Positions 22,346 to 38,339 of a stretch of DNA of 45,695 bases are shown one piece after another. Location: positions 1 to 45,695 of the forward strand of contig JAMOTN010000025.1 of assembly GCA_027062325.1 (NCBI GenBank), read 5' to 3'. Origin of the DNA: a bacterium (GTDB taxonomy: Bacteria; JAMOTN01). Position 1 is the stretch's first letter. The number at the start of each line of letters is the position of its first letter. The translations under genes and the position numbers were made by a program. The notes beneath the pieces are model-generated. The model saw nothing but the letters and a program-made list of their open reading frames with translations, was not told where the DNA came from and did not search any database.

Positions 22346-23887
22346 TTACCTCCTCTTGCCCCTTTTTCTATCATTATGCCGTTCATGCCGTCTAAAACTA
22401 TTCCTATTCCCAATTCTTGCATTTTGATTATTCTTGTACTCTCTTTCCTCCAATCTTCTTTTTTCCTCAACCAATGCAGTTACAAACTCCAGCATATTAA
22501 GAAAGTCCTTTACTTCTCTTTTTTCCGCTAAGGAAACTATTTTAGATAATACATTTGCTCCTCTATTTTCCATAATCTTCTTTAAAAAGTGATCTACCAC
22601 TAAGACAGAAAATCTTTCCTTATCCTCCTTTGTCCAATTAAGCTTATACACTCTATCATGAACAGTTATCAACATCTTAATCAAACTTTTAGCTGTGTCC
22701 TCCATCTTTTTTCCAACATTTAAGGACATAATTCTATTTCTTAACTTCTGCAAATTCATATTCCGCCAATCCTCGTAAAATGACGCCACATCAAATCTAT
22801 CATCCATTTTTATTTCGATAAGCGAAGCTATCCACGTAATCCTTGGCTCTGGTGGAGTAAATTTCACTTTTCCCGTTAAATCCAACACCCCAAAGCCGTA
22901 AGTCTTTTTTCCTAAGCTATATTTCCATATCGTCTTGGGCAATTTTTCCATACTTATCCTACGATTTTTCCTGTAATAAGGGTACTCCCTTCTCGCATCT
23001 ATCTTTTCATCTCTTATCTCCTCTAAAAATACGCTTTTGGCTGCCACTCCCGTCCCAAATCCACTAATCAAATAGTAGCCTATAGGTTGTTCAAATAACC
23101 ATCCAACACTCTCTCCCATACTTTCATCCAACCTCAATCCAAAAACATCAAAATACCAAAGTGCCAGTAATTTCAATACCCCTTCTAAACTCGACAGATC
23201 TAAAGCCGCCACTTTTTTAGGATAATTTTCTTTTAAATCCTTAATCTGTTTTTTCATTTCTGAAGAACCCAGGATCTTTTCTTTTATAAATAAAAATAAA
23301 ATTTCATCCATCTCAACGATCAACTTAACAGGACTTCTAGTAGCAATAAAGTAATAATTTTGCCTTATCCTTTTTTTTCTAGTTGCCTCAGCACTAAAGT
23401 TTATATACTTTGCAGGATTTTCTTCAATACTTACTTTTACAAACTTCCCTATTTTGTTTAAATTGTCTTTTCCCAACCGCTCTAGCCTCACTACATCCTC
23501 ATTCCTTCCACTCATCTCAGCAAATTCTAAAACCTTATCGTAAAACACCTTTCCTACTTTCTCAAACAATTTATTAAGCCTTCTACCCCTAAACTTACTA
23601 AAATCAATTTTGTTGAACATCCCCGCAAATTTTGCTGCAGCAAATATGGTAGTTATAAACGCCCCTTTTATCTCTGTAGCCGGTATATACTTCATGTAAG
23701 CATATCTTTTAGGATCTGTTGCACTCAAAACTTTCTTAATAAACTCTATGTCAAAATTATCGCTTTTCTCAATCTTTTCCACCACAGCCGATAGCCAATC
23801 CGCAAATATCCCTTCCTTTCCTTTACTCTTAAAACAGAAAGGAGTAGCTGTCGTTACATTAAACTCTGCTCGCAACCACTTAACCAT
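22346..23887 (-). CDS. csm5: Csm5-like RAMP protein of the type III CRISPR complex
   Basis: 513 residues, longer than the usual 350-420 for Csm5. The segment KYIPATEIKGAFITTIF (about 66-82) is the Csm5/RAMP counterpart of YIPGSSIKGAIR. A YFIATRSPVKL stretch near 180-190 and a later glycine-containing strand support a two-RAMP fold. Csm5 normally caps the crRNA 3' end of the complex. The last 40 residues are a basic, low-complexity tail (RRHERHNDRKRGKRR) not typical of the family, perhaps RNA-binding. It is third in the minus-strand arm, 28 bp after csm3. It converges on nfnB with 23 bp between stops and no obvious terminator. Start ATG with GGGAGGAG. Confidence 0.75.
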   Translation of the reverse strand: MVKWLRAEFNVTTATPFCFKSKGKEGIFADWLSAVVEKIEKSDNFDIEFIKKVLSATDPKRYAYMKYIPATEIKGAFITTIFAAAKFAGMFNKIDFSKFRGRRLNKLFEKVGKVFYDKVLEFAEMSGRNEDVVRLERLGKDNLNKIGKFVKVSIEENPAKYINFSAEATRKKRIRQNYYFIATRSPVKLIVEMDEILFLFIKEKILGSSEMKKQIKDLKENYPKKVAALDLSSLEGVLKLLALWYFDVFGLRLDESMGESVGWLFEQPIGYYLISGFGTGVAAKSVFLEEIRDEKIDARREYPYYRKNRRISMEKLPKTIWKYSLGKKTYGFGVLDLTGKVKFTPPEPRITWIASLIEIKMDDRFDVASFYEDWRNMNLQKLRNRIMSLNVGKKMEDTAKSLIKMLITVHDRVYKLNWTKEDKERFSVLVVDHFLKKIMENRGANVLSKIVSLAEKREVKDFLNMLEFVTALVEEKRRLEEREYKNNQNARIGNRNSFRRHERHNDRKRGKRR

Positions 23888-23915
23888 ATAAACTCCTCCC
23901 AGTAGCTATAATCCA

Positions 23916-24566
23916 CTACTCTACAACCACACTTTCATTCACTTTACTAAACCTAACTCTTCCATAACCTCTACTACCACTTCCACCAAGGTAGTCACTT
24001 TCTACCAACTTCAACCCCTCATCCACCAGAGAAAGCAGACTCTTTTCATCATCTCCTTCAAATACCTTGACGAGAATCTTTCCTCTAAACACGCTACCAG
24101 CAGCAACTCTCTCCATTATCCTAGGTCCAGCACCAGAAACTGTCCCAGTAATTCTATCTATGGAAACCTCCGTCTTTTCTTCCAATTTATAGTTTACAGG
24201 CATGAAGTCTTCAACAATTATGCGAGTAGGCGCAATTTCTTTCATATTTTTACCATCCTTATCTCCTGCAGAAACTCCAAATAATTTCAGAAAACTTTTT
24301 AATTTTTCATCACTTCCATCTTTTAATACACTTAAATCAGCCGGTTTCCCATCCTTGCTCCAACCATACTTTAGTTCTAATAAAGATCTCATCTTTCCTT
24401 TCAAACTTGAACCGGGAATGTAAGGTTCTCCATCCAGCGGATTTTTTACGACCGGATTATCTATTCCTCCTATTCTCTCTTCAGTTCCACCCGCTCCTAT
24501 ATGCAAACCCGTTAAAATTTCAACATCATATATCAACTCTAAAACTTTCTTTAATTTCTTACCCAC
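23916..24566 (-). CDS. csm3: Csm3, backbone RAMP and target-RNA nuclease subunit
   Basis: 216 residues, the usual Csm3 length. It has the canonical GLHIGAGG start, GGIDNPV with D36 matching the catalytic Asp33 of S. thermophilus Csm3, PYIPGSSLKGKMRSLLE (about 48-64), VSIDRITG and the C-terminal glycine-rich SGSRGYGRVRF. It polymerises along the crRNA and cleaves target RNA at 6-nt intervals. Second gene of the minus arm after csm2 (54 bp gap). A divergent second copy is at 29421-30086. Confidence 0.95.
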   Translation of the reverse strand: MGKKLKKVLELIYDVEILTGLHIGAGGTEERIGGIDNPVVKNPLDGEPYIPGSSLKGKMRSLLELKYGWSKDGKPADLSVLKDGSDEKLKSFLKLFGVSAGDKDGKNMKEIAPTRIIVEDFMPVNYKLEEKTEVSIDRITGTVSGAGPRIMERVAAGSVFRGKILVKVFEGDDEKSLLSLVDEGLKLVESDYLGGSGSRGYGRVRFSKVNESVVVE

Positions 24567-24620
24567 AACCTTTCGCCTCCTCTTTCACTAGTTTTATCTT
24601 ATTGTTTTATCGCAAGTCTT

Positions 24621-25043
24621 TTACGAAGATCTTTTTCTCTTTCCATCTCTTTCCTTTTCAGAAAGTAGGACATAACTTACCTCTAAAACATCTACCTTGT
24701 TTCTCAACCAGTTTTCAAACTCTGCCAAACTTCCCAAAGTCAATAAATCCTTTTCCCACATTTCAAACTTTTTCAATAACTTGTCTATTTCTCCATTTTC
24801 TCCTTTTTTGTCTTTTCTAACCATGTTATATCTCACTCTATACAGCCCTATAACAAGCTCTTTTTTCCAATCGTTAAGTTTCTCTCCCACTTTCTTTTCC
24901 TTTTCTACTTCATACAACTTTGCCAAAAAGATATTATAAAGCTTTCTCAACTGCCTATTACCAACTTCTTCACTTTCAAAAAACTTTGACAACTCCTCTG
25001 CCTCATCTCTAACCCTCTTCCACTCCTCACTCACTCTTACCAC
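24621..25043 (-). CDS. csm2: Csm2, small helical subunit of the type III complex
   Basis: 140 residues, all helical and strongly charged, as expected for Csm2 (small subunit lining the crRNA-target duplex). The NRQLRKLYNIFLAKLYEVE segment (about 29-47) resembles the SQLRKFY region of Csm2. Position at the head of the minus arm, directly before csm3, supports the call. It lies divergent to cas6 across a 96-bp shared promoter region. Sequence similarity in this family is weak, so identification leans on context. Confidence 0.75.
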   Translation of the reverse strand: MVRVSEEWKRVRDEAEELSKFFESEEVGNRQLRKLYNIFLAKLYEVEKEKKVGEKLNDWKKELVIGLYRVRYNMVRKDKKGENGEIDKLLKKFEMWEKDLLTLGSLAEFENWLRNKVDVLEVSYVLLSEKERDGKRKRSS

Positions 25044-25139
25044 CTCACTTGCATTAACACTTTGATTGTAATTTAACTTTCAGATTATTTGTATAGTGTG
25101 CTAATATTATAACAAACCACCCCAACGGAGGTAATTAAT
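25044..25139. promoter_or_regulatory. Shared divergent promoter region of the two CRISPR effector arms
   Basis: 96 bp between csm2 and cas6. TATTAT and TAATAT occur on the plus strand near 25103-25113, and TATAAT on the minus strand near 25107-25112, so -10 elements overlap in opposite directions. No good -35 was found for either side. GGAGGT at 25127-25132 is the cas6 ribosome site. Joint regulation of both arms is likely from the geometry. Confidence 0.5.
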
Positions 25140-25979
25140 TTGGCAAATCAAACCATTAGCATTTACAGGATAAAATTTGAAAAAATTTTCAACAAATTTG
25201 AAAATTGGCGGTGGAATTTACACTCACGCTTAGGAATTGCTTTAAAATCTACATTTTGTCAAATCAAAAAAGCAAGTCCTAAGGAGTGTAGGAATTGCTT
25301 TAGAAAAATTTTTTGCCCAGTCGCTCAAATATTTTTTAGAAATTGGATAAGTGGAAAAATACCACCGCTTCCTTTAAGGTTCTCTACAACCCCCAACTCA
25401 AACAACTCATTGTACCTTTTTGAATACGAACCCGGCACTGCAAAATTAACATTTGAAGCTCTCAAAACATTTGAAAGCGAAGATTTTAAAGTGGTTTCTA
25501 TGAGAAAAGTTTTTTCATTCTCTCCAGAAATTCTCTTAGATCACCACTCTCAACTTATAGAGTTTGCTACGAAACTTCTAAAAATCAAACTTTCGAATCC
25601 ATTTTCTTTTAAAATCTCAAATATATGCCTTCCTAAAAGCACTTCACAGGATATAAATTCTATAAAAGAATTGCTTTCCAGCCTTACTTATAATAAAACT
25701 AGAATAATTCTGCTATTCATGGGTATTTGGGAGGACTTTAAAGAACATTCTTTTAACCTTAAAGACTTTACCAACTACGTAGAAACAATGAACTTCTCAA
25801 TATCCACACTTCAAGTTTTTTCTCACAGAAACCAGAACTTCATAACCTATCCAGTTTTAAATTGTGAAATATCTTTTTCAGAATTCAACAACGAAGTTGC
25901 AAAATTTTTAATCTGCGCCAAAGTGTTCGGTTCTGGTAAGATGTCATCGGTGTACTCGGATGTTACAGTTATAAATTAA
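25140..25979 (+). CDS. cas6: Cas6-type pre-crRNA endoribonuclease
   Basis: 279 residues. The N-terminal HSRLGIALKSTFCQ (about 28-41, containing a His that is a candidate catalytic residue) is followed by CRNC and CP (about 52-64), a pattern seen in the PF10040-type Cas6 that precedes Cas10. The C-terminal GSGKMSSVYSD is a weak version of the glycine-rich RAMP loop. It would cut repeats in the crRNA precursor; the array is elsewhere. The start is TTG at 25140 with GGAGGT seven bases upstream, the only well-placed site. First gene of the plus-strand arm. Confidence 0.75.
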   Translation: MANQTISIYRIKFEKIFNKFENWRWNLHSRLGIALKSTFCQIKKASPKECRNCFRKIFCPVAQIFFRNWISGKIPPLPLRFSTTPNSNNSLYLFEYEPGTAKLTFEALKTFESEDFKVVSMRKVFSFSPEILLDHHSQLIEFATKLLKIKLSNPFSFKISNICLPKSTSQDINSIKELLSSLTYNKTRIILLFMGIWEDFKEHSFNLKDFTNYVETMNFSISTLQVFSHRNQNFITYPVLNCEISFSEFNNEVAKFLICAKVFGSGKMSSVYSDVTVIN

Positions 25980-25998
25980 AAATGGGAGGAGAGTAAAG

Positions 25999-28263
25999 GT
26001 GTCACTTAAAAACTTGGTAACCCAGGCTCTAAAACTTCTAGAATCAACAACTATAAAAGAAACTACTGACATTTTTCAAGCCCTAAAACTCCCTGTAATC
26101 ACCTATAATATGGAAAATTTAGACTCCATTTTTCCACACGTTTTTGAAAATATAGAAAGGTTATGGTTTGAACGTATTTTATGGCTTGACGGAGCTGAAA
26201 AAATCATTATTGGAAAACTAGATGTATCTGGAATACAACGTTTCTTAAGTGAGGTCCTAGTCTCAAAAGCTATGTCCACAATGAAAATTCGAAGCGAACT
26301 CTTGGAATTTTTGGAAAGTCTTTTTCTCTACTCCCTGGCAGAAAGCATAAATCTTATATTTGGTAAAGGCACTGCAAAGGTAATGGCTGTAGGGGCTGGA
26401 AAAGGCGACATATTCATCAAAGTCAGTGATGAAGACATATCACTCAAAGCAGAGATTACAAACCTTATCGCAGAAAATTTAATTCTCTCAATAAACTCCA
26501 GATTATACAGCTTTTTCGGAGTAAGGTGCCCAATTTTCATATTTGCACTTAGTAAAACTCCAATCGATCTTTCTTCCAAACTTTCTTCAAATGAAGAAAA
26601 GCTGTTAGATTCCTTTAAAATCTTAGAAAGTAAGAAAAATGTTAAGTGGAATCTAGTTGGTTTTGAAAAAACTTACTCAGAGTTTAACAATTCAACATCC
26701 AATTCAACAATTTGCGAATACACATACGAGACTATCAGTTGCTGTAAAAGATGTAAAAAATTTTTCTCAATCAATGAACTTCCAGAAAACAAAGACAAAG
26801 AGTTATGTATAGGATGTAATCTAATCGACAGTTTCAAGAAAGCAAGTCAAAACATAGACCCAACTTTAGCTCGAACCTCAACTATTATGATCGAGTTTAA
26901 TAATAACTCACTTACTATCAAACCTTTTGATAACCAAAGCGAAAATCGCTTACTCCAAAAGGTTACAGAGTTCATTTTAGGGTCAGGGATTACTATTCAA
27001 CTACCGGAAAATTTGTCTATCCATTCAACTTTTTCCAGAACAACTCGCTTTGCAATTTGCTGGGTTACTTCTAGAAACATTGAAAGTCTGGATTCTCTAA
27101 ACAAAACCAATCTAGATAATATCCACTGGATGATGTATAATGATGGCTCAATCTACGCAAAAATTCCAAATACAAAGAAATACCACTATGTATCTCTTCA
27201 AGATTTGGTTAACACTACTTTGAAAAGCCTGAACAAGAAAAACTCTTATATAGCTTTTGCTAAAAGCGATATAGATTCTTTCGGTAAAATTTTCGCATTT
27301 TCATTAAAAAACGCTTTCAAATCTCAAATTAACTCCTCAACAAGAGAATACTTCAAGATAGCTTTTTCTCTATCATATTACATTGAATATTTTGTGAAAA
27401 TTTTAACCTCTCAAGTTATTGAAGACCCCTCTGTCTTTCTAGATCACCTTATAAAAATCACATCTTCATCTGAAGAATTCACTAATTTGATAAAGCAGCT
27501 CAAAGATATTTTTAATGTCATACAAGAGTTTCCAAACAATGAATATTCTCTTCACGTTCATATCTTATATGCAGGTGGAGATGATATAACGCTGGTTGGT
27601 AGATTTTTAGATGTAATACTTGCTGTGATGCTTATATGGCTATTATTTAAGTTATATACTCACAACACTCTAGGATTTTCAACTGGAGTTTCCATTGATA
27701 AAGCAACCTTCCCTTTCTATCTTCTGAATAAAAGATCTTCAAAATTAGAAGAGACTGCTAAAAATATAATTAAATACCTTGCTAAACAGCATGCGCTTTC
27801 CATTAACACATCTTCTAAACCTATTCTAAAAGACGCAATTGCAATAGATACAGTTTCTCTATTTGAAAAAGGCTCAATCTGTTTATTTAAACAGGACATT
27901 TTATCTCAACTTCCAATTACATTTTCACGCTTCATAGAATTAGAAAGTGGTTTTATTAAACGCATAGCTAAAATTCAAAAGCTTATTAACTATCCAGAAA
28001 AAGACATAAGTCTACTTGAACTTTTCAAAGAATATATGCGTCTCGAATACTACATAATCAGAAAAGAAAAGGCAGACTCAGCTCTCGTTGAAACTTATTC
28101 AAAAATTAAAAATACATTTACAATTAGTAAAGACGAATTTTTATCTTATTCTAACTACAAACGTTGGGCTTCCATATTTCTTGCTTGTAAATTAGCATAT
28201 GAAACTAAAAAAATCATCAATAAAACAGCTGAAGAAAATTCATCTGAAGTTCAGGAGGGCTAA
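25999..28263 (+). CDS. cas10: Cas10/Csm1, cyclic oligoadenylate synthase without an HD domain
   Basis: 754 residues. First palm-like domain begins early (GKLDVSGIQRFLSE near 73-86; AGKGDIFIKV near 132-141). A zinc ribbon has CKRC and CIGC (about 250-275). The second palm has the cyclase motif GGDD at residues 526-529, and a helical C-terminal domain follows. Only about 70 residues precede the first palm, with no HD motif, so the N-terminal ssDNA nuclease found in most Csm1/Cas10 is absent. Expected activity: target-RNA-triggered synthesis of cyclic oligoadenylates. GTG start, with GGGAGGAG upstream; csm4 begins 2 bp after the stop, indicating coupling. Confidence 0.93.
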   Translation: MSLKNLVTQALKLLESTTIKETTDIFQALKLPVITYNMENLDSIFPHVFENIERLWFERILWLDGAEKIIIGKLDVSGIQRFLSEVLVSKAMSTMKIRSELLEFLESLFLYSLAESINLIFGKGTAKVMAVGAGKGDIFIKVSDEDISLKAEITNLIAENLILSINSRLYSFFGVRCPIFIFALSKTPIDLSSKLSSNEEKLLDSFKILESKKNVKWNLVGFEKTYSEFNNSTSNSTICEYTYETISCCKRCKKFFSINELPENKDKELCIGCNLIDSFKKASQNIDPTLARTSTIMIEFNNNSLTIKPFDNQSENRLLQKVTEFILGSGITIQLPENLSIHSTFSRTTRFAICWVTSRNIESLDSLNKTNLDNIHWMMYNDGSIYAKIPNTKKYHYVSLQDLVNTTLKSLNKKNSYIAFAKSDIDSFGKIFAFSLKNAFKSQINSSTREYFKIAFSLSYYIEYFVKILTSQVIEDPSVFLDHLIKITSSSEEFTNLIKQLKDIFNVIQEFPNNEYSLHVHILYAGGDDITLVGRFLDVILAVMLIWLLFKLYTHNTLGFSTGVSIDKATFPFYLLNKRSSKLEETAKNIIKYLAKQHALSINTSSKPILKDAIAIDTVSLFEKGSICLFKQDILSQLPITFSRFIELESGFIKRIAKIQKLINYPEKDISLLELFKEYMRLEYYIIRKEKADSALVETYSKIKNTFTISKDEFLSYSNYKRWASIFLACKLAYETKKIINKTAEENSSEVQEG

Positions 28264-28265
28264 GT

Positions 28266-29405
28266 ATGAAGTCTGATATGATAGCATTAGTAGTTAAGTT
28301 ACCGTTCAAGAAAGTAAGATTCGGATACGTTGAAGACGAACCTTACAAAATATACAGTGAAGTAATTCCATCAGACCGCTTATGGGGAAATATCATTTAC
28401 AACTCTTTTCTCACTCTAGATGAAAAACTAGCAAATGAATTGATCAACTCCATGTATATATCCACTGCTTTTTTATATAATGAAGACACACTATTTATCC
28501 CACACTTTCCAAATGAGAAACTTATAAAGTTTGCAATAACTAAGGAACTTCTTGCTCCAAAGGATATTAAAAAACTTCGTTGGTTTCCCTTGAATAAATT
28601 CAAAGAATATATAAACCTCGATCCAAAAGCAAGCTCTCAGAAAGTTAAAAAATGGATTGAAGAAGAGTGGGCATACATAAGTGAAATGACAGAGAAAGAA
28701 TTTTACTCTGTAAAAACTGAAACCAATGCTAAATTGCCGTATCTTGGAGAAACTTCGGAGTTTGTCGCTTCTCCTTTCCACTTTAGTTGGGTGGAGTTCT
28801 CAAAAAATTCTGGTTATTGGTCTCTTATAATTCTCGATCCCTCATCATCAGATGTGGAAGTCTCTAAATTAGTCGACACTCTAATTAAGGTATTGGAATT
28901 TTCTTCGAAAGTTGGTCTAGGAAGCGATACATCTTTAGGCTTTGGTAAGTTTGAATTTAATGAAGAAAATATCTATCAACTTGAATGTAAAATTGAAAAT
29001 AATCTTACAAAACCCACAAATCTTTTTCTTATATCGCGAACCATGCTAGAGAATATAAACACATTAACTCAAAACAAGAAAATTACTCCTACAAAACTTG
29101 AGGTAGACATATCAACCGGTTGGACTAAAGGGTTATTTGACGAGGAGAAAACATCTTTTGCATATAGAAAAATTCCACTTCCCGTATACCGTGAAGGCTG
29201 TGTATGGAAACTCAACTCTATACCAGAAAAATTCCACATTGCCAGAATTAAAAGTGCTCCCTCAGAAGTGGAATTTTTGAAAGATCTCGGCATATTCATA
29301 CTGCCAGTTTTTTGGAAAGAACATATCTCAGAAAATCCTCATTCAATTTACAGAAACTTATCAATGTTAGCTTTCTTTACGATAGATCAAGAAATAGACA
29401 ATTAA
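28266..29405 (+). CDS. csm4: Csm4, crRNA 5'-handle-binding RAMP protein
   Basis: 379 residues. Csm4 features: N-terminal ALVVKLPFKKVRFGY strand, EVIPSDRLWGNI segment near residues 38-49, and the glycine-rich KVGLGSDTSLGFGKF near 214-228. It contacts Cas10 and the 5' tag of the crRNA. It follows cas10 with a 2-bp gap, and its ribosome site CAGGAGG lies inside the end of cas10. Length and order fit type III-A. Confidence 0.9.
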   Translation: MKSDMIALVVKLPFKKVRFGYVEDEPYKIYSEVIPSDRLWGNIIYNSFLTLDEKLANELINSMYISTAFLYNEDTLFIPHFPNEKLIKFAITKELLAPKDIKKLRWFPLNKFKEYINLDPKASSQKVKKWIEEEWAYISEMTEKEFYSVKTETNAKLPYLGETSEFVASPFHFSWVEFSKNSGYWSLIILDPSSSDVEVSKLVDTLIKVLEFSSKVGLGSDTSLGFGKFEFNEENIYQLECKIENNLTKPTNLFLISRTMLENINTLTQNKKITPTKLEVDISTGWTKGLFDEEKTSFAYRKIPLPVYREGCVWKLNSIPEKFHIARIKSAPSEVEFLKDLGIFILPVFWKEHISENPHSIYRNLSMLAFFTIDQEIDN

Positions 29406-29420
29406 TAAGGGGTGAAAAAT

Positions 29421-30086
29421 ATGTTTAAAATAGCAAAGTTTAAATTGGGTTTAGAAACAACTTCACCTCTTCTGATTCCAGACACAAGCTATACAAAGTC
29501 ACTCCTCCACTCATATGATTTAATAGCAATACAAAAGGACTCTAAATACATCATTCCAGCAACCTCTCTTAAAGGAAAACTAAAATACCTATTTGCTATA
29601 AAACATGGCTTCGGCGGTACATCTTTAAAAGACTTAGAAGAACTTCCAGCTACATTAACAGATGTTTTCTTCAACTGGGTAAATGTGTTCGGTTGTGGAG
29701 CGGATTTGATGATGAATTTGAGTAAGAAAGGGAAACTTGAAGCTGTAAAATCCAAACTCAAGATCCCTGCTAGAGTATTTTTTAACGATTTAGTCAGCAC
29801 CAAGGAGATAAATAAAGAAGCTCCTTTTGAAAATAAAACCTCTGTATCTATCGACCGTTTTTCCCTAAAAGCCAATGATGGCTCACTTCTTCAATTTGCG
29901 TGCGTTCCCAGAAACACCCCCTTCGAAGGGGTAATTGAAATACTCTATAAGAACGATGAAGAATTAAAAAGCTACGTGGCTATACTCAAAGAGTCACTAG
30001 AAATGCTAAACACCGATTATCTCGGTAGAGGTGGCTCACGCGGAATGGGAAGGGTAAAAGTACTTTCTTTTTCAAAAGAAGAGTAG
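29421..30086 (+). CDS. Second Csm3-like RAMP subunit
   Basis: 221 residues from ATG at 29421 (AAGGGGTG seven bases upstream; an in-frame GTG nine bases earlier overlaps that site). RAMP features: YIIPATSLKGKLKYLFA (about 45-61), TSVSIDRFS, and glycine-rich GRGGSRGMGRVKV near the end. An Asp at residue 33 lies in the loop where Csm3 has its catalytic Asp, with a two-residue shorter spacing. The GLHIGxG motif of ordinary Csm3 is missing (TSPLLIPDT instead). Probably an additional backbone subunit, perhaps at a fixed position beside Csm4. Last gene of the plus arm. Confidence 0.85.
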   Translation: MFKIAKFKLGLETTSPLLIPDTSYTKSLLHSYDLIAIQKDSKYIIPATSLKGKLKYLFAIKHGFGGTSLKDLEELPATLTDVFFNWVNVFGCGADLMMNLSKKGKLEAVKSKLKIPARVFFNDLVSTKEINKEAPFENKTSVSIDRFSLKANDGSLLQFACVPRNTPFEGVIEILYKNDEELKSYVAILKESLEMLNTDYLGRGGSRGMGRVKVLSFSKEE

Positions 30087-30210
30087 GAAAAGGAAAAGAG
30101 TGGTGCCGGCTCTAGCTAGGAGGCCGTAATAACTAACCTCATTCGATAAATAATAGGTATAGAAGTTGGAAAAAACAGATTATTTCAAATTACATTTCAT
30201 TTTCATTCAA
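30087..30210. other. Intergenic stretch with an imperfect hairpin, convergent gene ends
   Basis: 124 bp between the stops of the second csm3 and the ring nuclease gene. GGCTC and GAGGCC around a TAGCTAG loop (about 30110-30127) can form an imperfect stem in an otherwise AT-rich stretch. No U-run follows in the plus direction, so a terminator call is weak. No CRISPR repeat was found here. Confidence 0.35.
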
Positions 30211-30636
30211 TTACTCTTCTCTTATAAGAACAAAAAACTCTATCATATTATTTTCCAACATTTCTTTTATTTCATTGTACTCATATTCGCGCACTTCAAG
30301 CCTCTTTTTAGTCTTTAAAGCCAAAGCCCACTCTCCCTTGTTAAACACTATCTCTACTCTGTTGAAAAAGAAATGTTTCTCCAAATGAGGCGGGGCTAGT
30401 TTTTTTAAAACCTCCACTGTACTTTCATGCCCCAACGCACTCAAAATCTCAACGTTTTCTGCCTCAATGCCCTCTAAAATTTCAAAGTAAGTCTCCATTC
30501 CTATTCTTCTCAAAAAAAATCTAGCTTCCACATCATTATCTGGAATAGGAATAATTATGCTGTTCAACAGATAAACTCGACGTGGCAACTCATATTTTTC
30601 AAGCAAATTTGCAAAATTCAAACTACGCACTTCCAT
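30211..30636 (-). CDS. crn2: DUF1874/AcrIII-1-family cyclic tetra-adenylate ring nuclease (Crn2-like)
   Basis: 141 residues. The C-terminal 120 match the AcrIII-1 fold: RVYLLNS (20-26), LGHEST with H70 corresponding to catalytic His47 of SIRV1 gp29, FNRVEIVF (91-98, R93 matching Arg66), KKRLEV near 109-114, and a closing EMLENNMIEFFVLI. The family cleaves cyclic tetra-adenylate, the messenger of type III CRISPR. An N-terminal extension of about 17 residues precedes the core. GGGAGTGAA precedes the ATG. Next to a cyclase-only Cas10, it is best read as a host ring nuclease that resets signalling; a virus-derived anti-CRISPR captured in the chromosome is an alternative. Confidence 0.85.
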   Translation of the reverse strand: MEVRSLNFANLLEKYELPRRVYLLNSIIIPIPDNDVEARFFLRRIGMETYFEILEGIEAENVEILSALGHESTVEVLKKLAPPHLEKHFFFNRVEIVFNKGEWALALKTKKRLEVREYEYNEIKEMLENNMIEFFVLIREE

Positions 30637-30675
30637 TTCACTCCCATATTCACAAATCTCACCTAAACAAAACCC

Positions 30676-30942
30676 TTACTCAAAAAGCGAATAGTATAAA
30701 GCAACTGCCAGACCTATTACTAAGCCAGTTCCAAGACCGTTTATGAATGATACCTGCTCCTCCTTTGCCTCTACCTTCTCTCCTTTTAAGCAAGCTTTTA
30801 AAATTTCTGGAATTGTGCGTTGAGCCTCTTCCGTCATAACAATGTTTGGTCTTATTTTCATATTGTAAAAGACTGCCCACATCCCTACAAACACTATTAT
30901 TAACAATGCCAACTTCCAAACAGCTCTAGGAGACTTGGCCAT
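30676..30942 (-). CDS. Small two-TM membrane protein paired with the ring nuclease
   Basis: 88 residues from the ATG at 30942 (AGGTGG a few bases upstream; a GTG nine bases earlier overlaps the site). A short basic N-terminus is followed by TM1 (about 9-26, LALLIIVFVGMWAVF), a 40-residue soluble segment, and TM2 (about 67-85, GLGTGLVIGLAVALYYS). Both ends are probably on the same side. It is 39 bp upstream of crn2 on the same strand, so cotranscribed. There is no CARF or SAVED-like domain. Function unknown; it could be a small membrane effector or simply a housekeeping membrane protein. Confidence 0.7.
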   Translation of the reverse strand: MAKSPRAVWKLALLIIVFVGMWAVFYNMKIRPNIVMTEEAQRTIPEILKACLKGEKVEAKEEQVSFINGLGTGLVIGLAVALYYSLFE

Positions 30943-31068
30943 AGTCACCACCTACCTTTAAAATACTCTTTCTTATAATATTTAAAAACTTCCTTACTGG
31001 CAAACTTTCCTCAAACTCAAAAGTATCGCTTACCACTTCTTTTCTTACCTTAAATATCTTATATTCTT

Positions 31069-33471
31069 TCACATATTCTTTTCTATCTTTGAGGCTTTAT
31101 CAATATCACCAATCTTCTTATAAAGATTGACCAACTTATCTCTAAGCCCAGAAACATCATATTTAACCCACAACTTAAAGTAATTCTCTGCAGCCTTTTT
31201 CAAATTTCCTGCAGCTTCTAAAACCACACCTTTACAAAACAACACCTTTTTAGACTCTGGAACACTTTTTAAAAACTCCACAAGCCACGTATTAAACTTG
31301 CTACATTCCCTAGTTTTTAGCAGCTTTACAGCACTGTCAACTAACTTACTATCTATATCTTCTCGTTCCCTTTCCACCTCATTGCTACCCACACTTTTAC
31401 CTTTTATATTAGCAACAACCCTTTTAACCACTTTCTTAACAATCCCATAAATAGCATCTGCAAGAAGAATCTTTATATCCGTTCCAAAATTCCGACTCAA
31501 TTTTGACAAAACTTTTTTAACAAAGACTGCACATTCAACGCTCGCCCTCCCAGTTTCTAGACTAGACACTAAAAAGTCATAGAATCCTTTTAAAAAAGCA
31601 TTAACAGCCTCCAACTCCTCCCTTTCATTCTTTCTATAAGAAGGAGCATTCTCCTTAATCCAATTAAGCACATTCTCTGCTCTTTCCACTTCTCCTTCTG
31701 CTAATCTTAACCTCACCAACTCAAAAGCCGCATCAGCTTTAATCCACCATTTCCCCTCACTCTTTAAAACTTTCTCCAAAATCTTTTCCTTATCCTTATT
31801 CCCTAAGTTAGACGCTGCTTCAAACAACAGCTCTGCACTTTTTATCTCACTTAAAGCATCCATACCAAGTTTACCCATCTTCCACAACCAAAACTCAGCT
31901 ACTTCCCTAATCTTTCTATTATTAGAATTTTGGAATTTTTCTGCGAAATGTACAATCTCAGAAGTTGCTCCCATTCCATCTAATATTTCAAAAATAATCT
32001 TCAGTGTCTCCACCTCAGGCTTATAATTCACAAGCTTTTTAAATAAATCCAAAGCCTTTTCTTTATCTCCTAAACTATAAACTGCAAAGGCCTTCATTTT
32101 GGCTAATTCATACTCTCCATTTTTTAAAAGAGTATCCATATCCAGCTTTTCAAATTCTTTATAAGATCCACTGTTATACTTTGCATACCACCACATTCTA
32201 AATATCTCTGGATCATAAGTGAACTGAGAACATTTCTTGAAAAATACCTGCCACTTTTTCTGTTTGTACAAAGCCAAACACCATAAGCGCACCACATCAA
32301 AAAGTTCTTTCATGGACAATTTTAGACCTTTATAAAATACCACCTTTCCTTTCGTCTTATGAGTCTTCACAATCAACTTCATAATTTCCGGGGTTATTAC
32401 TACCTCTAACAACTTTTCAACTTCTCTGTATTTCCCTGCAGCAGCTAAAGACTTCAGGTAAACCATAAAGTTATCAAATTCTTTCAAATAAATAAGCTCA
32501 CTTTCACTCTTCCCACCAACCTTATTCAATTTATTAAGTTTATAATCAAAGTACCTTTTTAAATCTTTAGCAGCCTCAATATAATCTCCTAAATAAAATT
32601 CAGCGTATCCCTTGTAAACCAATTTATCCCGCTTCAAGCAAAGCTTTAACACCTGCTTATACTTTCCAGCTTTTAAAAAACTAATAGCCGCCTCCTCACA
32701 CAAACCAAGCCCTCTATATACCAAGGCCGCCTCCGCATTCTTTTTTAAATTTTCCAAAGCAAGTGCATACATTTCAAATAAGTTCTTAATAAGTGATAAA
32801 TCTTCACTTAAAATCTTCTTTGAAACTTTCCTTTTAGAAGCTCCTTTAACTTTTTTTTGATTCGAACTTGCTCTATTTAATCCATTCAACGCCTTACTCA
32901 AACAACACGAACACGAACTTTCAGCCTCTTCATAACAACTGCAACAAGCATTGCAATTTTTAAACCTAGATATTGAAACTCCCTCAAGAGAGCACCATTT
33001 CTCAAAATCTTCAACAACTTCTTTGTACCTTTTCAACTTAATCAAGCTAGAAAAGTAAATCAGACATTCATCCGGTCTACTAAAATCAGCAAGCTCAACC
33101 ACTTTATCATATTTTTTCAAATTCCAATAACACCATACTAAACCATAACGCGCCCAATCTTTGTATTGAGCAAACTTATCATAAACACGTTTGTACCACT
33201 TTAAAGCCTCACTGTATCTACCAAGCTGATAGTAACTCTCCGCTATCACCATTGCTATCTCTGGAAGTCTTATTTCAGTGGGCGAAAGAGAAGAAGCTTC
33301 CTCTATAACATCCTTGTAAAACCCTTTATTGTAAAGCTTTATTATGTACTCTGCATCTACTGAAAAGGCTACATTCACTATGAAGATAAATACACACAAA
33401 AAAAGGAGCAGCTTAATTAGCCACTCCCCTTCTGCTAGCAATTTCAATCTAAGCTCTGATTTTATACTCAT
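31069..33471 (-). CDS. Large TPR-repeat envelope protein with a Cys-rich insert
   Basis: 800 residues. An N-terminal hydrophobic segment (about 18-37) is a signal or anchor. TPR-like helix pairs run through most of the chain (for example ESYYQLGRYSEALKWYKRVY at about 75-94 and YSLGDKEKALDLFKKLVNYK near 466-485). A run of eight Cys lies within residues 170-192 (CNACCSCYEEAESSCSCC), a dense cluster unlike the rest and possibly metal-binding. Probably a scaffold facing the periplasm. ATG start after GAGGGGAG. It is 69 bp downstream of the HD-GYP gene, and the same operon may continue to the ring nuclease pair. Confidence 0.8.
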   Translation of the reverse strand: MSIKSELRLKLLAEGEWLIKLLLFLCVFIFIVNVAFSVDAEYIIKLYNKGFYKDVIEEASSLSPTEIRLPEIAMVIAESYYQLGRYSEALKWYKRVYDKFAQYKDWARYGLVWCYWNLKKYDKVVELADFSRPDECLIYFSSLIKLKRYKEVVEDFEKWCSLEGVSISRFKNCNACCSCYEEAESSCSCCLSKALNGLNRASSNQKKVKGASKRKVSKKILSEDLSLIKNLFEMYALALENLKKNAEAALVYRGLGLCEEAAISFLKAGKYKQVLKLCLKRDKLVYKGYAEFYLGDYIEAAKDLKRYFDYKLNKLNKVGGKSESELIYLKEFDNFMVYLKSLAAAGKYREVEKLLEVVITPEIMKLIVKTHKTKGKVVFYKGLKLSMKELFDVVRLWCLALYKQKKWQVFFKKCSQFTYDPEIFRMWWYAKYNSGSYKEFEKLDMDTLLKNGEYELAKMKAFAVYSLGDKEKALDLFKKLVNYKPEVETLKIIFEILDGMGATSEIVHFAEKFQNSNNRKIREVAEFWLWKMGKLGMDALSEIKSAELLFEAASNLGNKDKEKILEKVLKSEGKWWIKADAAFELVRLRLAEGEVERAENVLNWIKENAPSYRKNEREELEAVNAFLKGFYDFLVSSLETGRASVECAVFVKKVLSKLSRNFGTDIKILLADAIYGIVKKVVKRVVANIKGKSVGSNEVEREREDIDSKLVDSAVKLLKTRECSKFNTWLVEFLKSVPESKKVLFCKGVVLEAAGNLKKAAENYFKLWVKYDVSGLRDKLVNLYKKIGDIDKASKIEKNM

Positions 33472-33540: not shown

Positions 33541-36078
33541 CTAATCCTTTTTAGCAACAGAGCCATCCACTACTCCTATATCAGGCAACTTTTCAGCCTC
33601 TATTACCTTTCCATTTTCATAAACCGCCTGTGGCGTAAACTGACTCCTTATCTCCTCGAAGTTATCCTTGTATTTCTTTTCAAATACTCGAACAAAAGCC
33701 TCAGCCATCTCTGGATCAAATTGTGAGCCCCGCTCTTTTAAAATTGTGTCTATTGCAACTTCAGGAGGAAGCCCTCGTCTGTAAGCACGATGAGATGTCA
33801 TAGCATCAAATGTATCTGCTACAGCTATTATTCTCGAACCTATAGGAACATTCTCTCCTTTTAAACCATCTGGATAACCACGCCCATCGTATCTTTCATG
33901 GTGATGTTTGACCCACGGGATGATCTCTGCAAACATTTCAAATGGCTCTAGAATTTTCGCACTTATAACCGGGTGTTTTTGAATTTCACGGTATTCTTCG
34001 TCTGTAAGACGTCCCTTCTTCAGAAGGATGCTATCTCTTATTCCAATCTTTCCTATATCGTGAAGAAGGGCTGCCATCTCAAGCTTTTCTCTCTCTTCCT
34101 CACCCCAACCAAGCTCTTCTGCAATATCCTTTGAGTAAATCGCAACACGCTGTGAGTGTCCATGAGTATATGGATCTCTCGCATCCATTGCATTCGCAAG
34201 AACGTGAATGGTATCCTTGTACATCTTCTTTATTTGGCGATAAAGCTTAGAATTTTCGATCATTCCAGCAGCTAGAGAGGCAATAAGCTCGACCATTTTT
34301 AAATCTTCCATGTTATAGGGTATCTCTCCAAGTTTATTTAAAACCTCTAAAACTCCTATCACCTTTTCCTCTTTTGTAGCTCTATCTACAGTGATTAAAG
34401 GAACAGCTATAATTGAGCGAGTTTTAAACTGAGTTTTTTGGTCAGCCCCTTTGAAAAATCTATCATCCTTTGAAGTATCGGGAACAATAACCGACTCTTT
34501 ATTCTCTGCAACCCATCCTGCAATTCCCTGACCTCTTTTTAAGCGAATCTCCTTAAGCTTCTCCCCACTTCCACCCTCAACTATGTTGAAGTAAAGCTCT
34601 CCTGTATCCTCATTTCTCAACAATACGCTACTTGCCTCAGAATTCAAAGCATCCTTAGTCTTTGCTATAATAACGCCAAGCAACTCATCCAAATCCAGCG
34701 AAGAATTTATTATCTGCTTAGAAACATCAAAAATTGTCTCCAACTCCTTTACTTGTTGTATCAAGAACTCCTGCTTATAAAGCTTGTTGTATGCTTTGAT
34801 TGCTATCCTTTTCACATAGTCAAGATACTCCTTTTCAAAATCTGTAAACTCTTTTACTGAAAATACTACGGCTCCTCTTAAGCTAGCTAATACTTCATCT
34901 TTATCATTATTTTCAAAATCATCATTCTCACTATCCTCCCCTATCAACAACAAGACTTTATAGCCCTTCCAATCAAACAGATAATCCTTCTCCCTTTTTA
35001 TATGAGTGAATAACTCCTCTTTAAACTCATCCCAATCATCAATGAGCTCCTCACCTGTTCTGAGCTCAAACCTTTCTATATCTTTTCTATATGAATAAAC
35101 CCCTATTTGGGAAGATTTGAAAAATCCTGAGAAAAAGTTCGCTAGAACCTGCCAATAACTTGCCCAATCTTTTGCCTCAAAAAGTCCAACAGTCAACTTA
35201 TCTCTAGCTTCCAACCAAAACGGATTTTGAGTTGTCTCTATCCACCTATCCTCACTCTCTTTTAAAGGATTATCTTGAACAATTATTCGCTTAGCCATCT
35301 TAATTTTTTTGCTTTTCTCATCAACTTCAACTATTATTCCATTTAAACATCTCTTGTTACTAGAAGAAGCCCCGCGCATTTTCACAGGGAGCTTACCCAC
35401 GTATTGTTCAACTGCCATATCCCTCTTTATTCCAACAACAGACTCATGTGTTCCACACATTCCAGCATCAGTTATGTAAACACTTCCCTCAGGTAAAATT
35501 TGCAAATCCGCTGTCTGAACATGCGTGTGGGTACCGACGATGATGTGAACTCGTCCATCCAACCAATAAGCTAAACTCTTCTTTTCTATCTCACTTTCTC
35601 CATGAAAATCAACCATCCAAATATCAGCCTTATTATAGTGCTCATTTAATACTTCTTCTACTTTTTTAAACGGATCAACTGAAACCTTAACCTGCTCTTT
35701 CCCAAATATATCTATGAGAGTTTCAGCACCTAAAGCATTTATTACTCCTAACTTTTTCCCACCTTTTTCAACAACTATCCAACCTTTTCCCGGCATATCA
35801 TCAGGGTAATTTACAGGTCTAATAACAGGAAGCTCTTTTTCAAAAATCTTTTTCACATCTTTTCTAAACCATGTGTGATTACCTAAAGTTATAACATCAA
35901 CTCCTGTTTTCAAAATTTTCTCCGCCTCTTTTAAAGTTATCCCTAGGCCCTTCGCCGAGTTTTCTCCATTCACAACTATAAAATCCGGCTGTAGCCTCTC
36001 TTTAATCCAGGGAACTAACTTTTCTATTATCTCCAATCCTACATCGTCATTTATATCTCCTAGAAAAACAATTCTCAT
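33541..36078 (-). CDS. YmdB-like phosphodiesterase fused to GAF and HD-GYP domains
   Basis: 845 residues. Residues 1-260 are a complete YmdB/TIGR00282-type metallophosphoesterase: D8 in GDINDD, E39-N40 in NGENS, GNHTW near 67-71, DFHGE near 155-159, and GTHTHVQ near 180-186. A linker with no clear family follows (about 260-455), then a GAF domain (about 460-625, RGQGIAGWVAE), then HD-GYP (about 640-810) with H673-D674 in LLHDIGK and GYP at 734-736 in HHERYDGRGYP. YmdB hydrolyses 2',3'-cAMP or related nucleotides and HD-GYP hydrolyses c-di-GMP. ATG overlaps the upstream stop codon as TAATG. I know of no standard architecture joining these. Confidence 0.9.
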   Translation of the reverse strand: MRIVFLGDINDDVGLEIIEKLVPWIKERLQPDFIVVNGENSAKGLGITLKEAEKILKTGVDVITLGNHTWFRKDVKKIFEKELPVIRPVNYPDDMPGKGWIVVEKGGKKLGVINALGAETLIDIFGKEQVKVSVDPFKKVEEVLNEHYNKADIWMVDFHGESEIEKKSLAYWLDGRVHIIVGTHTHVQTADLQILPEGSVYITDAGMCGTHESVVGIKRDMAVEQYVGKLPVKMRGASSSNKRCLNGIIVEVDEKSKKIKMAKRIIVQDNPLKESEDRWIETTQNPFWLEARDKLTVGLFEAKDWASYWQVLANFFSGFFKSSQIGVYSYRKDIERFELRTGEELIDDWDEFKEELFTHIKREKDYLFDWKGYKVLLLIGEDSENDDFENNDKDEVLASLRGAVVFSVKEFTDFEKEYLDYVKRIAIKAYNKLYKQEFLIQQVKELETIFDVSKQIINSSLDLDELLGVIIAKTKDALNSEASSVLLRNEDTGELYFNIVEGGSGEKLKEIRLKRGQGIAGWVAENKESVIVPDTSKDDRFFKGADQKTQFKTRSIIAVPLITVDRATKEEKVIGVLEVLNKLGEIPYNMEDLKMVELIASLAAGMIENSKLYRQIKKMYKDTIHVLANAMDARDPYTHGHSQRVAIYSKDIAEELGWGEEEREKLEMAALLHDIGKIGIRDSILLKKGRLTDEEYREIQKHPVISAKILEPFEMFAEIIPWVKHHHERYDGRGYPDGLKGENVPIGSRIIAVADTFDAMTSHRAYRRGLPPEVAIDTILKERGSQFDPEMAEAFVRVFEKKYKDNFEEIRSQFTPQAVYENGKVIEAEKLPDIGVVDGSVAKKD

Positions 36079-38339
36079 TACTGACCCTCCTTTGGCTCAA
36101 GCCCGTTAATTTCATCCTCTATATCTGCAAAAACTACTCTATTTCTTCCAGTTTCCTTTGCCGTATAAAGAGCCCTGTCAACTCTTTTTATAAAACTTTC
36201 AACGCTCTCTCCCCTCTGCCAAATACCGACACCTATACTTATAGTCACCCTTATTCCTTTTATAGTCTCTGAAGCTACAGTTTTTCTTATTCTCTCTGCT
36301 ATAACAATTGCACCATCTTTTGCAGTTTCAGGAAGTATAACTGCAAACTCTTCTCCTCCGTATCTACAGGGAATATCGATCTTTCTTACTATTGATTTTA
36401 TCACCTGAGCAACTGCTTTTAAAACTTCATCTCCAACTTGATGTCCATATCTATCATTTATACTCTTAAAATGATCAATATCTGTCATCAATAAAGCAAC
36501 TTCCTTACCATATCTTCTAGCCCTTGCAATCTCCTCCTCTATTCTCATATCAAAGTATCTTCTTACAAACAAACCTGTTAAGCCATCCTTTGTAGCCATT
36601 TCATAAAGCCTTGCACTCTCTACAACACCACTTACCTGAGAAGTCAAAATCTTTAATAACTCTACATAATCGTTGACATTTTTTAAAACCCCTTCAGGAA
36701 GATTTACTACATTTAAAACTCCAACTGTTCTTCCATGTAAACTCAGAGGATAACAAAGCAAATTTCTAACTGACCCCACACTTAAGCCTTTTTCTTTAAA
36801 CTCAACTTCTCCTTTTTTTATCTTATTCAAACTATCCACAAGCTCCCAGTCTCCATCTGAAAACACTTTACCAGCTATTCCTTCACCCTTTTTCAAAATA
36901 ATCTTTTCTCCCTCAGCAAACTTAGATGGCCAAACAGCCTTGACAACAAGACCGCCAGCCCCTGCATCCCATAACATAACCGAAGCCCTCTCACACCCAA
37001 CCGCCTGAACTACTTCTTCCAAAAAGTTTTTTAATATAGCATCTAAATCCGTTAAATCCTGAACTTCCGTAGCAATTTTCTTTATCACCTCAAGTTCACG
37101 TTCTTTTTCTAACTTTTTCAACCTTTCTTCTTCATAAAGATATCGATACTTAACAGCACCAACAGTTAAAAAAAGCATAAACCAACTAAAACACAGTGCT
37201 CCAAAGTGCACGTATTGATTGAATACAAGTCCAATGAAGAACACCCCAGCTACAAAAGGAATATACAGTATATTTCTAATAACCCAATTCTTTGACTTTA
37301 CATCAAACAATATCACCAACGAAATAAAAGCTATAATCAAATCCAGCATCTTATTGCTTTTCAAATACTTCCTATGCTTCAAATCTTTGTAAGCATAGGA
37401 ATGCCAATAAACTCCCGGAATTAAACCCATATCTGTGCTATACCAATCTCTGCTGGTAACATCTCCTACAAATACAACCTTGTCTTTAAAAGCCTCTGTC
37501 AACTCTTCTGTTGACATTTTCAACACCTGCGACATAGAATATTCAATCATATCTTCACGCTCTTTAGGGAACACCACTCTGAAGCTTGAAAGCCTATCAG
37601 TTAAACTTTTATTCAAAACTCCTTCCTTTCTTGAAACTTTTTCTAAATTACTCCTCAATAGAGTCTCGGAGCTAGAACTTTGTCCAACACCTCTCTCAGC
37701 ATTAAACAAGCATAATTTTTCAGCTGAATAGTAATAAGCTGCGTATGCCAAAGTCTTTTCTCCAAAATCCTTATAGTACAAACGATACTTTCTTAATATC
37801 CCATCTTTGTCAAGTTCTACATTCACTATTCCAAAATCTAAAGCCTTTTGCCTTAGCAATTTCGCAGGATATACAACAGATGGAACCAACATGGAATTAT
37901 CTATTCTAACAGCTAAAACTGCAGGGATTTTTTCTAAAAGCCGTGAAAACTCTTTATCATAAGGAGACTCTAATTCAAATAAAATATCAAATAGGATAAC
38001 TTTGGGACAGTTAGAAGAATTTTTGAGCATCGACAAACGCTCTAAGAAATCTATGCAAGCCTTTCTCCTCTCAAAACCATGCTGTACTTTTCCAAAATAC
38101 TCTTCAAGACAATCATCCGTAATAGAAACAACCACCGTACTTTTGTCTTTATCAAACTCACATAACTTCAGTACCTTCTCAAAATACCTACTATTCACAA
38201 ACCAACGCCAGACATAACCGTCTATACCCGCTTCTAAAGCCATTACATATAAGAAGTAATAAACCATACTTCCCACAAAGAAACTCAAAAGTACAAATCT
38301 AAAGTTGGAATATCTTCCAAAAATATTCGATCCCCCCAC
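36078..38339 (-). CDS. CHASE2-GAF-GGDEF diguanylate cyclase
   Basis: 753 residues. N-terminal TM near 12-32, a periplasmic CHASE2-like sensor domain to about 325 (VVVSITDDCLEE, KVVFVGDVTSRDWYSTDMG, IPGVYWHSYA), then two or three TM helices (about 330-400). A GAF domain covers about 420-575 (KKGEGIAGKVF). GGDEF spans about 590-750 with GGEEF at 661-665 and an inhibitory RxxD site (R652, D655). It should synthesise c-di-GMP with product inhibition. The GTG start at 38339 has only a weak ribosome site (TTTTGGA), so the true start may differ by a few codons. Stop overlaps the next gene's ATG by one base. Confidence 0.9.
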   Translation of the reverse strand: MGGSNIFGRYSNFRFVLLSFFVGSMVYYFLYVMALEAGIDGYVWRWFVNSRYFEKVLKLCEFDKDKSTVVVSITDDCLEEYFGKVQHGFERRKACIDFLERLSMLKNSSNCPKVILFDILFELESPYDKEFSRLLEKIPAVLAVRIDNSMLVPSVVYPAKLLRQKALDFGIVNVELDKDGILRKYRLYYKDFGEKTLAYAAYYYSAEKLCLFNAERGVGQSSSSETLLRSNLEKVSRKEGVLNKSLTDRLSSFRVVFPKEREDMIEYSMSQVLKMSTEELTEAFKDKVVFVGDVTSRDWYSTDMGLIPGVYWHSYAYKDLKHRKYLKSNKMLDLIIAFISLVILFDVKSKNWVIRNILYIPFVAGVFFIGLVFNQYVHFGALCFSWFMLFLTVGAVKYRYLYEEERLKKLEKERELEVIKKIATEVQDLTDLDAILKNFLEEVVQAVGCERASVMLWDAGAGGLVVKAVWPSKFAEGEKIILKKGEGIAGKVFSDGDWELVDSLNKIKKGEVEFKEKGLSVGSVRNLLCYPLSLHGRTVGVLNVVNLPEGVLKNVNDYVELLKILTSQVSGVVESARLYEMATKDGLTGLFVRRYFDMRIEEEIARARRYGKEVALLMTDIDHFKSINDRYGHQVGDEVLKAVAQVIKSIVRKIDIPCRYGGEEFAVILPETAKDGAIVIAERIRKTVASETIKGIRVTISIGVGIWQRGESVESFIKRVDRALYTAKETGRNRVVFADIEDEINGLEPKEGQ

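Follow-up and report, generated by a model that had tools for sequence, protein, structure and literature searches.

The DNA analysed here is one stretch of 45,695 nt, hereafter the window. It carries a type III-A-like CRISPR locus (22346-30086) made up of two divergent arms, with an extra Csm3-like gene closing the Cas10 arm, and a ring nuclease gene of the DUF1874/Crn2 type that lies directly beyond that arm. The genes and features of this region are as follows.

22346-23887, minus strand: divergent RAMP gene, 513 aa, probably csm5-like as judged from position and length (best PADLOC match Cas7_IIIg, E 0.013)
23916-24566, minus strand: csm3 (TIGR02582, 180.6 bits, cut-off 90; also PADLOC)
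24621-25043, minus strand: csm2-like small subunit, weakly matched (PF03750, 19.9 bits, below the cut-off of 24.8; PADLOC, E 1.2e-4)
25140-25979, plus strand: cas6-like gene, 279 aa, with a CxxC-containing N-terminus (weak PADLOC match, E 1.8e-4)
25999-28263, plus strand: cas10/csm1 (PF22335, palm, 48.6 bits, cut-off 27; also PADLOC; TIGR02578, 96.2 bits, below the cut-off of 170)
28266-29405, plus strand: csm4 (TIGR01903, 88.2 bits, cut-off 55; also PADLOC)
29412-30086, plus strand: second Csm3-like RAMP gene, the last of the Cas10 arm (PF03787, 46.3 bits, cut-off 22.1; also PADLOC; TIGR02582, 59.4 bits, below the cut-off of 90)
30087-30210, no strand: convergent intergenic gap of 124 bp between the right csm arm and the ring nuclease gene
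30211-30636, minus strand: DUF1874/Crn2-like ring nuclease gene (P0001), an ATG-started ORF of 141 aa
30676-30951, minus strand: ORF of 91 aa whose product, judged by eye, probably spans the membrane twice; 39 bp upstream of the ring nuclease gene
30975-31003, minus strand: promoter-like TTGCCA-17-TATTAT (10/12), upstream of the 91-aa ORF, a consensus match only

The protein encoded at 22346-23887 found no match in Pfam or NCBIfam, and a single-sequence fold of the cas6-like protein was uninformative (pLDDT 33.5). In Cas10 the cyclase motif, GGDD, is at residue 526, and an HD dipeptide is absent. The Csm1 profile (753 positions) is matched only from its position 227 onward, and in an alignment with a solved Csm1 (6nud_J) residue 56 of this Cas10 stands opposite residue 228. 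The protein thus lacks the N-terminal HD region, and the description of the locus as cyclase-only is supported. A RAMP profile search of the assembly returned two places, both in this csm locus. No CRISPR array was present in the window, and the repeat search gave no such repeat family. By our own arithmetic, the csm locus with 1 kb on each side makes up about 0.6% of the assembly (1.65 Mb). The chance of finding the ring nuclease gene next to the only RAMP locus found is therefore also about 0.6%.

P0001 is the working name of the 141-aa product of the ORF at 30211-30636, which is a real gene. The protein matched Pfam PF08960 (DUF1874, STIV_B116-like) over residues 21-114 with 50.4 bits (cut-off 26, E 2.6e-13) and phrog_5063 with 52.2 bits, and no matching family was returned by the PADLOC and NCBIfam profile searches. 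With a profile made from the 53 other rows of the comparison set, P0001 scored 54.8 bits, and the best value among 1000 shuffled versions, 932 of which gave a score, was 8.8 bits. The PF08960 match exceeds chance. An N-terminal extension of approximately 18 aa bears a predicted helix at residues 8-14 in the AlphaFold2 model. An earlier note, made from the DNA letters, had placed the protein in the DUF1874/AcrIII-1-Crn2 family; this was borne out by the PF08960 score together with the fold described below, and membership in DUF1874/Crn2 is supported on both grounds. Membership in PF08960 carries no information on activity.

A single-chain AlphaFold2 model was obtained from an alignment of 20 sequences, namely P0001 and 19 of 36 relatives from viral contigs, and had a pLDDT of 93.6 and a pTM of 0.87. 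In sequence searches of the PDB, the best match was the Crn2 part of the Marinitoga Csx1-Crn2 fusion (8y7f, E 1.2e-14), followed in order by STIV B116, SIRV1 gp29, and AFV3-109. Structural comparison of the model by VIA-align gave these values.

8y7f (Marinitoga Csx1-Crn2): Z 16.7, rmsd 3.2, 136 aligned
2j85 (STIV B116): Z 16.4, rmsd 1.6, 115 aligned
8y7g (Marinitoga Csx1-Crn2): Z 15.9, rmsd 4.1, 136 aligned
2x4i (SIRV1 gp29): Z 14.5, rmsd 1.6, 104 aligned
6scf (SIRV1 gp29): Z 13.3, rmsd 2.5, 109 aligned
2j6b (AFV3-109): Z 12.7, rmsd 2.1, 105 aligned
8y6z (Marinitoga Csx1-Crn2): Z 11.3, rmsd 3.8, 115 aligned

The first entry beyond these seven structures of the Crn2/AcrIII-1 family reached a VIA-align Z of only 2.9, and Foldseek gave E-values of 2.8e-10 to 3.7e-5 for 17 chains of the seven entries. 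The comparison with SIRV1 gp29, which had been suggested as a check on the assignment, produced a strong match for one chain (Z 14.5 and 13.3). In the VIA alignment, the first residues of P0001 are also paired with the Marinitoga chains, from about chain residue 307; this overlap may be just a helix that packs at a comparable position.

In a maximum-likelihood tree of 54 rows, P0001 was sister to the Crn2 domain of Marinitoga Csx1-Crn2 with a support of 98/97, and in a second maximum-likelihood tree, from which four rows had been removed, the pair was recovered with a support of 99/97. A phylogeny that separates host Crn2 from viral proteins had been proposed earlier, and in both trees P0001 is grouped with the characterised host Crn2. 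The first tree contained four cellular rows (P0001, Marinitoga, and the proteins of genomes G051 and G234) and the second contained three. Viral rows make up 48 of the 54, a biased share, because the set was collected largely from virus collections. One of the 36 IMG/VR proteins was left out (L058, which is the same as L057), and Acidianus rod-shaped virus 2 (ARV2) was entered once, as L017 and not as L004. P0001 and the Marinitoga Crn2 both sit on long branches, and the trees include few cellular rows. The neighbours of the pair changed between builds and were either ARV2/ATV-like or SIRV1/STIV-like rows; when Marinitoga was taken out of the tree, P0001 was a long branch with ARV2-like rows nearest to it. 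Because the deep placement is unstable between builds, the pair may have an ancient viral origin.

Searches with tblastn of P0001 against named records found 11 records of the phage collection, all from archaeal viruses, and no match among plasmid records. When the viral collection was scanned with P0001 alone, no match was obtained, and a scan with the family alignment gave one locus, in Acidianus rod-shaped virus 2. The genome contigs were scanned with two family alignments, which yielded 84 and 70 candidate stretches, none of them confirmed.

The Marinitoga Crn2 domain has the highest identity to P0001 of any row (38% over 108 columns) and resembles it in fold (Z up to 16.7). The two have GHES, KGE-x-AL, and an ENN-x-I C-terminal stretch in common, and both are encoded by a host with type III CRISPR. 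Unlike P0001, which stands alone beside a III-A-like locus, the Marinitoga domain is part of a fusion, encoded in a III-B locus, with a Csx1 ribonuclease that is activated by cA4. It also keeps R-x-E-E-G, whereas the loop of P0001 is one residue shorter and four extra residues precede NRVEI. The Marinitoga fusion is reported to cleave cA4 via His495 at 9 per minute (PMC7293037). SIRV1 gp29 (AcrIII-1) has the same fold, and its N8, G46, H47, T50, N65, R66, and R85 are conserved in P0001, but it is viral, only 27-29% identical, and without the N-terminal helix extension, and its E88-G89 is absent or shifted in P0001. STIV B116 (2j85) and AFV3-109 (2j6b), of the YddF family, likewise share the fold (Z 16.4 and 12.7) and the conserved residues, but are viral genes of about 110-120 aa without the extension. 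The Crn2-like protein of G051 resembles P0001 in being a host DUF1874 protein from a type III locus with a GGDD-containing Cas10. It is 26-30% identical to P0001, depending on the alignment, and is placed among the YddF-like rows of the tree. Its gene, unlike that of P0001, comes directly after a same-strand gene for a CARF-membrane protein.

In host genomes the family is rare in our sample. The PF08960 profile matched four of 386 genomes from 327 genera, and three of these matches, including that of the source genome, were over the cut-off; the fourth (G050) was not counted, as it was below the cut-off and without the GH motif. Two further sets that overlap this sample gave 3 matches in 25 genomes of one phylum, all in one genus, and 1 in 5 genomes of another phylum. 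A DUF1874 gene lies beside a type III locus in two of the three genomes over the cut-off. In G051 the locus is of type III-B, with Cmr6, Cas10, and Cmr1, and the DUF1874 gene directly follows the CARF-membrane gene; these two genes (L016, 9511-10290) are likely an effector/off-switch pair. In G234, G386, and G387, no type III genes were noticed within about 9-10 kb of the DUF1874 gene when the ORFs were inspected by eye. The compact DUF1874 gene of these three genomes, which belong to one genus (L015, L071, and L070, respectively), adjoins the same gene in each, which reads as encoding a 196-aa isochorismatase-like protein. A survey of co-occurrence with cas10 had also been proposed; in these few genomes adjacency held for two of three, and in the third, G234, no type III genes were noticed within about 9-10 kb. 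Because DUF1874 also occurs in hosts without a noticed type III locus nearby, the family alone is no proof of a role. None of the 58 other genomes listed is related to the source genome more closely than at the level of the same domain. A published survey of 38,742 genomes counts 7 loci with Crn2; the same paper reports 36 phage genomes with AcrIII-1 and makes the case that the family is of viral origin (PMC12409355).

The ring nuclease gene is read from the minus strand, which the earlier note had left unstated, and converges with the plus-strand gene that closes the Cas10 arm. The distance of 124 bp given previously is exact, since the last csm gene ends at 30086. Because the ring nuclease gene is on the strand opposite to the Cas10 arm, it lies outside the cas operon. 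The 91-aa protein encoded upstream of it matched no family over the cut-off in Pfam, PADLOC, NCBIfam, or PHROGs, and had no match in the phage collection. A promoter consensus scan gave 8 matches in the window, compared with 3.2 expected, and among the matches listed none lay on the minus strand between 30275 and the match at 30975-31003. As this match is upstream of the 91-aa ORF and the list has none immediately before the ring nuclease gene, a shared transcript is possible, and the consensus scan suggests that the two genes may be co-transcribed.

The ring nuclease gene has the GC content, coding-strand skew, and codon usage of the neighbouring minus-strand genes, and a recent acquisition was rejected on the basis of this native composition. 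The segment 29000-32000 showed no similarity by blastn to 50,697 phage records, no tRNA genes were found in the window, and 29500-31200 contained no direct repeats longer than 12 nt. On these grounds a viral island around the gene, a placement that the earlier note had considered, was rejected, none being recognisable there. Flanking genes encode TPR, YmdB-GAF-HD, and CHASE2-GAF-GGDEF proteins; further flanking products, named after their PHROGs matches, are NAD-synthetase-like proteins and one glycosyltransferase. Nine flanking or locus proteins were compared with PHROGs and five matched at 1e-5, to families annotated as ribonucleotide reductase and unknown, GGDEF-containing unknown, NAD synthetase, and glycosyltransferase. 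In our reading, these five matches reflect common cellular enzymes that have relatives in phages, and we do not take the genes for phage genes. The setting of the ring nuclease gene is supported as host rather than viral. On the minus strand at 33541-38339 of the window, a YmdB metallophosphoesterase that also carries fused GAF and HD domains is encoded beside the CHASE2-GAF-GGDEF protein; the two are a candidate c-di-GMP signalling pair near a cyclic oligoadenylate system.

Active-site residues were compared in the 54-row alignment, where the 53 rows besides P0001 represent 49 different sequences, with numbering after SIRV1 gp29. Every one of the 53 other rows, and P0001 as well, has the G46, H47, R66, and R85 of gp29. 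Asn8 is kept in 49 of the 50 rows that have a residue there, Thr50 in 51/53, and Asn65 in 50/53, and all three are present in P0001. The residues kept in P0001 are thus N25, G69, H70, T73, N92, R93, and R112; H70, in the GH motif, is equivalent to H47, R93 to R66, and R112 to R85. The three motifs named earlier, LGHEST with H70, FNRVEI, and KKRLE, are all present (L68-G-H70-E-S-T73, F91-N-R93-V-E-I96, and K110-K-R112-L-E114). They had been said to match the family in order and spacing; the order is indeed kept, but the spacing is not. His70 and Arg93 are separated by 22 residues, compared with 18 in SIRV1 gp29, with an insertion of four residues between the GHEST helix and NRVEI, and R-L-E stands in place of R-x-x-E.

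The unusual change is in the loop after R85. R-x-x-E, with E88, is found in 52 of the 53 other rows, and Gly (G89) comes next in 51. In P0001 this loop reads R112-L-E114-V-R, which is one residue fewer and without the following Gly. The alignments differ at this point: two place V115 opposite E88 of gp29 and one places E114 there. The register counted back from the following helix, in comparison with Marinitoga, favours E114 as the equivalent of E88, with one residue deleted. At the position of gp29 D75, where 46 of the 53 other rows have D, P0001 has E102, and E is present in the Marinitoga Crn2 too. For AFV3-109, a hydrogen bond is reported between Glu86 of one subunit and His45 of its partner, with Arg64 in close contact with that histidine (PMC1796864). 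The role of gp29 E88 is taken here from Glu86 of AFV3-109, as a literature search for E88 or Glu88 gave no paper. The change to R-L-E would mean that the glutamate partner of the catalytic histidine is displaced or lost, and the catalytic pair of P0001 would either persist, on a shortened loop, or be disrupted. We know of no active enzyme with this deletion in the R-x-x-E loop.

P0001 is likely to be a stand-alone chromosomal host Crn2 whose cleavage of cA4 resets a III-A-like system with an HD-less Cas10. Dimerisation, cA4 specificity, cleavage, and the off-switch role are assigned by analogy with the family, and cA4 is the presumed messenger in view of the family's known specificity. In this proposal, target RNA would be sensed by the Csm complex, upon which the HD-less Cas10, through its cyclase motif, would make cyclic oligoadenylate. 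A dimer of P0001 would bind cA4 in its cleft and cut on both sides, with His70 as the general acid. By analogy with Arg64 and Arg83 of AFV3-109, Arg93 would be placed beside His70 and Arg112 at the dimer interface. The products of cA4 would be A2>P/A2-P, and the system would be reset after clearance.

The strongest competing reading is that P0001 is a binding-only or slow variant, that is, a cA4 sponge or a slow ring nuclease in which the short R-L-E loop breaks the trans His-Glu pair and the messenger is buffered. The departure from the nearly uniform R-x-x-E-G loop, the replacement of D75 by E102 (a change shared with Marinitoga), and the bond between Glu86 and His45 across the subunits of AFV3-109 (PMC1796864) would fit such a protein. 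We consider it unlikely, as E114 falls in the register of E88 when counted from the following helix, so that the glutamate may be kept, and the histidine, both arginines, and the asparagine are intact. There is a smaller chance that the gene is a captured viral anti-CRISPR (AcrIII-1), either still acting against the CRISPR system of its host or persisting as a decaying relic. Its family is predominantly viral in the tree, although the sampling is biased, the tblastn records are all from archaeal viruses, and AcrIII-1 in 36 phage genomes compares with Crn2 in 7 loci in the published survey (PMC12409355). The closest relative of P0001 is nevertheless a host Crn2 domain, the flanks look cellular, the composition is native, and neither the surrounding DNA (29000-32000) nor the 91-aa neighbour resembles any record of the phage collection, with no long direct repeats around the gene and no tRNA gene in the window in support of an insertion.

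It is still less probable that P0001 is a DUF1874 protein with another job, such as DNA binding or regulation, which lies beside csm by accident. In fluorescence titrations AFV3-109 showed an interaction with dsDNA, and nucleic-acid binding was proposed for it (PMC1796864), and DUF1874 genes without noticed type III genes within about 9-10 kb are seen in G234, G386, and G387. Against this are the low chance, about 0.6%, of adjacency to the only RAMP locus found, and the fusion of the nearest relative to a cA4-activated ribonuclease (PMC7293037).

As a host Crn2, P0001 beside a type III locus is a fresh example of a known arrangement, and the altered loop by its active site is unusual. A stand-alone relative of the Crn2 half of the fusion, in a genome without close kin, is helpful in asking whether a viral anti-CRISPR became a host off-switch or the reverse. 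In addition, the one-residue deletion by the catalytic pair is a natural variant that bears on the contribution of the trans glutamate.

Ring nucleases in effector-containing loci occur only with cA4-dependent effectors, and 31 cases of a ring nuclease locus without an effector are counted in the same survey (PMC12409355). In the assembly (83.87% complete), profiles for the cA4 effector families Csx1_CARF (PF22230), SAVED (PF18145), Cas_APE2256 (PF09651), and Csm6_HEPN (PF09659) found no match. CARF_Card1 (PF23400) gave one sub-threshold match on contig C79 (E 0.34), which was rejected as an effector because the protein reads as SPFH/prohibitin-like. This search covered five profile families, fewer than all possible receptors, and the contig that carries the array is cut. 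A ring nuclease and an HD-less Cas10 without a recognised receptor mark a place for seeking a new effector. The off-switch might serve an effector of an unrecognised kind, with the loop of the ring nuclease remodelled, but we hold this to be rather doubtful. Candidates for the receptor could be the upstream 91-aa membrane protein or one of five proteins encoded beside the CRISPR array of contig C29.

That array (L011, 18225-18894) is at the contig end and has a 35-nt repeat in eight full copies and a ninth that is cut; the repeat was found nowhere else in the assembly with up to 3 mismatches. On the minus strand beside it (L011, 9938-17796) are, in order, cas1, cas2, a gene for 473 aa, a further cas2, and genes for 223, 284, 343, and 412 aa. 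Cas1 has 535 aa, and its Pfam match stops near residue 324. The 473-, 223-, 284-, 343-, and 412-aa proteins had no Pfam or NCBIfam match over the cut-off and nothing convincing in PADLOC; the best weak matches were at E 0.0067 in PADLOC (412 aa) and, far below the cut-off, at E 0.0026 in NCBIfam (473 aa). A sigma factor (284 aa) and a SAVED domain (412 aa) were seen by eye only and were set aside, as searches of Pfam, PADLOC, NCBIfam, and PDB sequences were unconvincing. The array itself contains one double-length spacer with a 36-nt internal duplication, and several of its spacers look G+C-rich for the genome.
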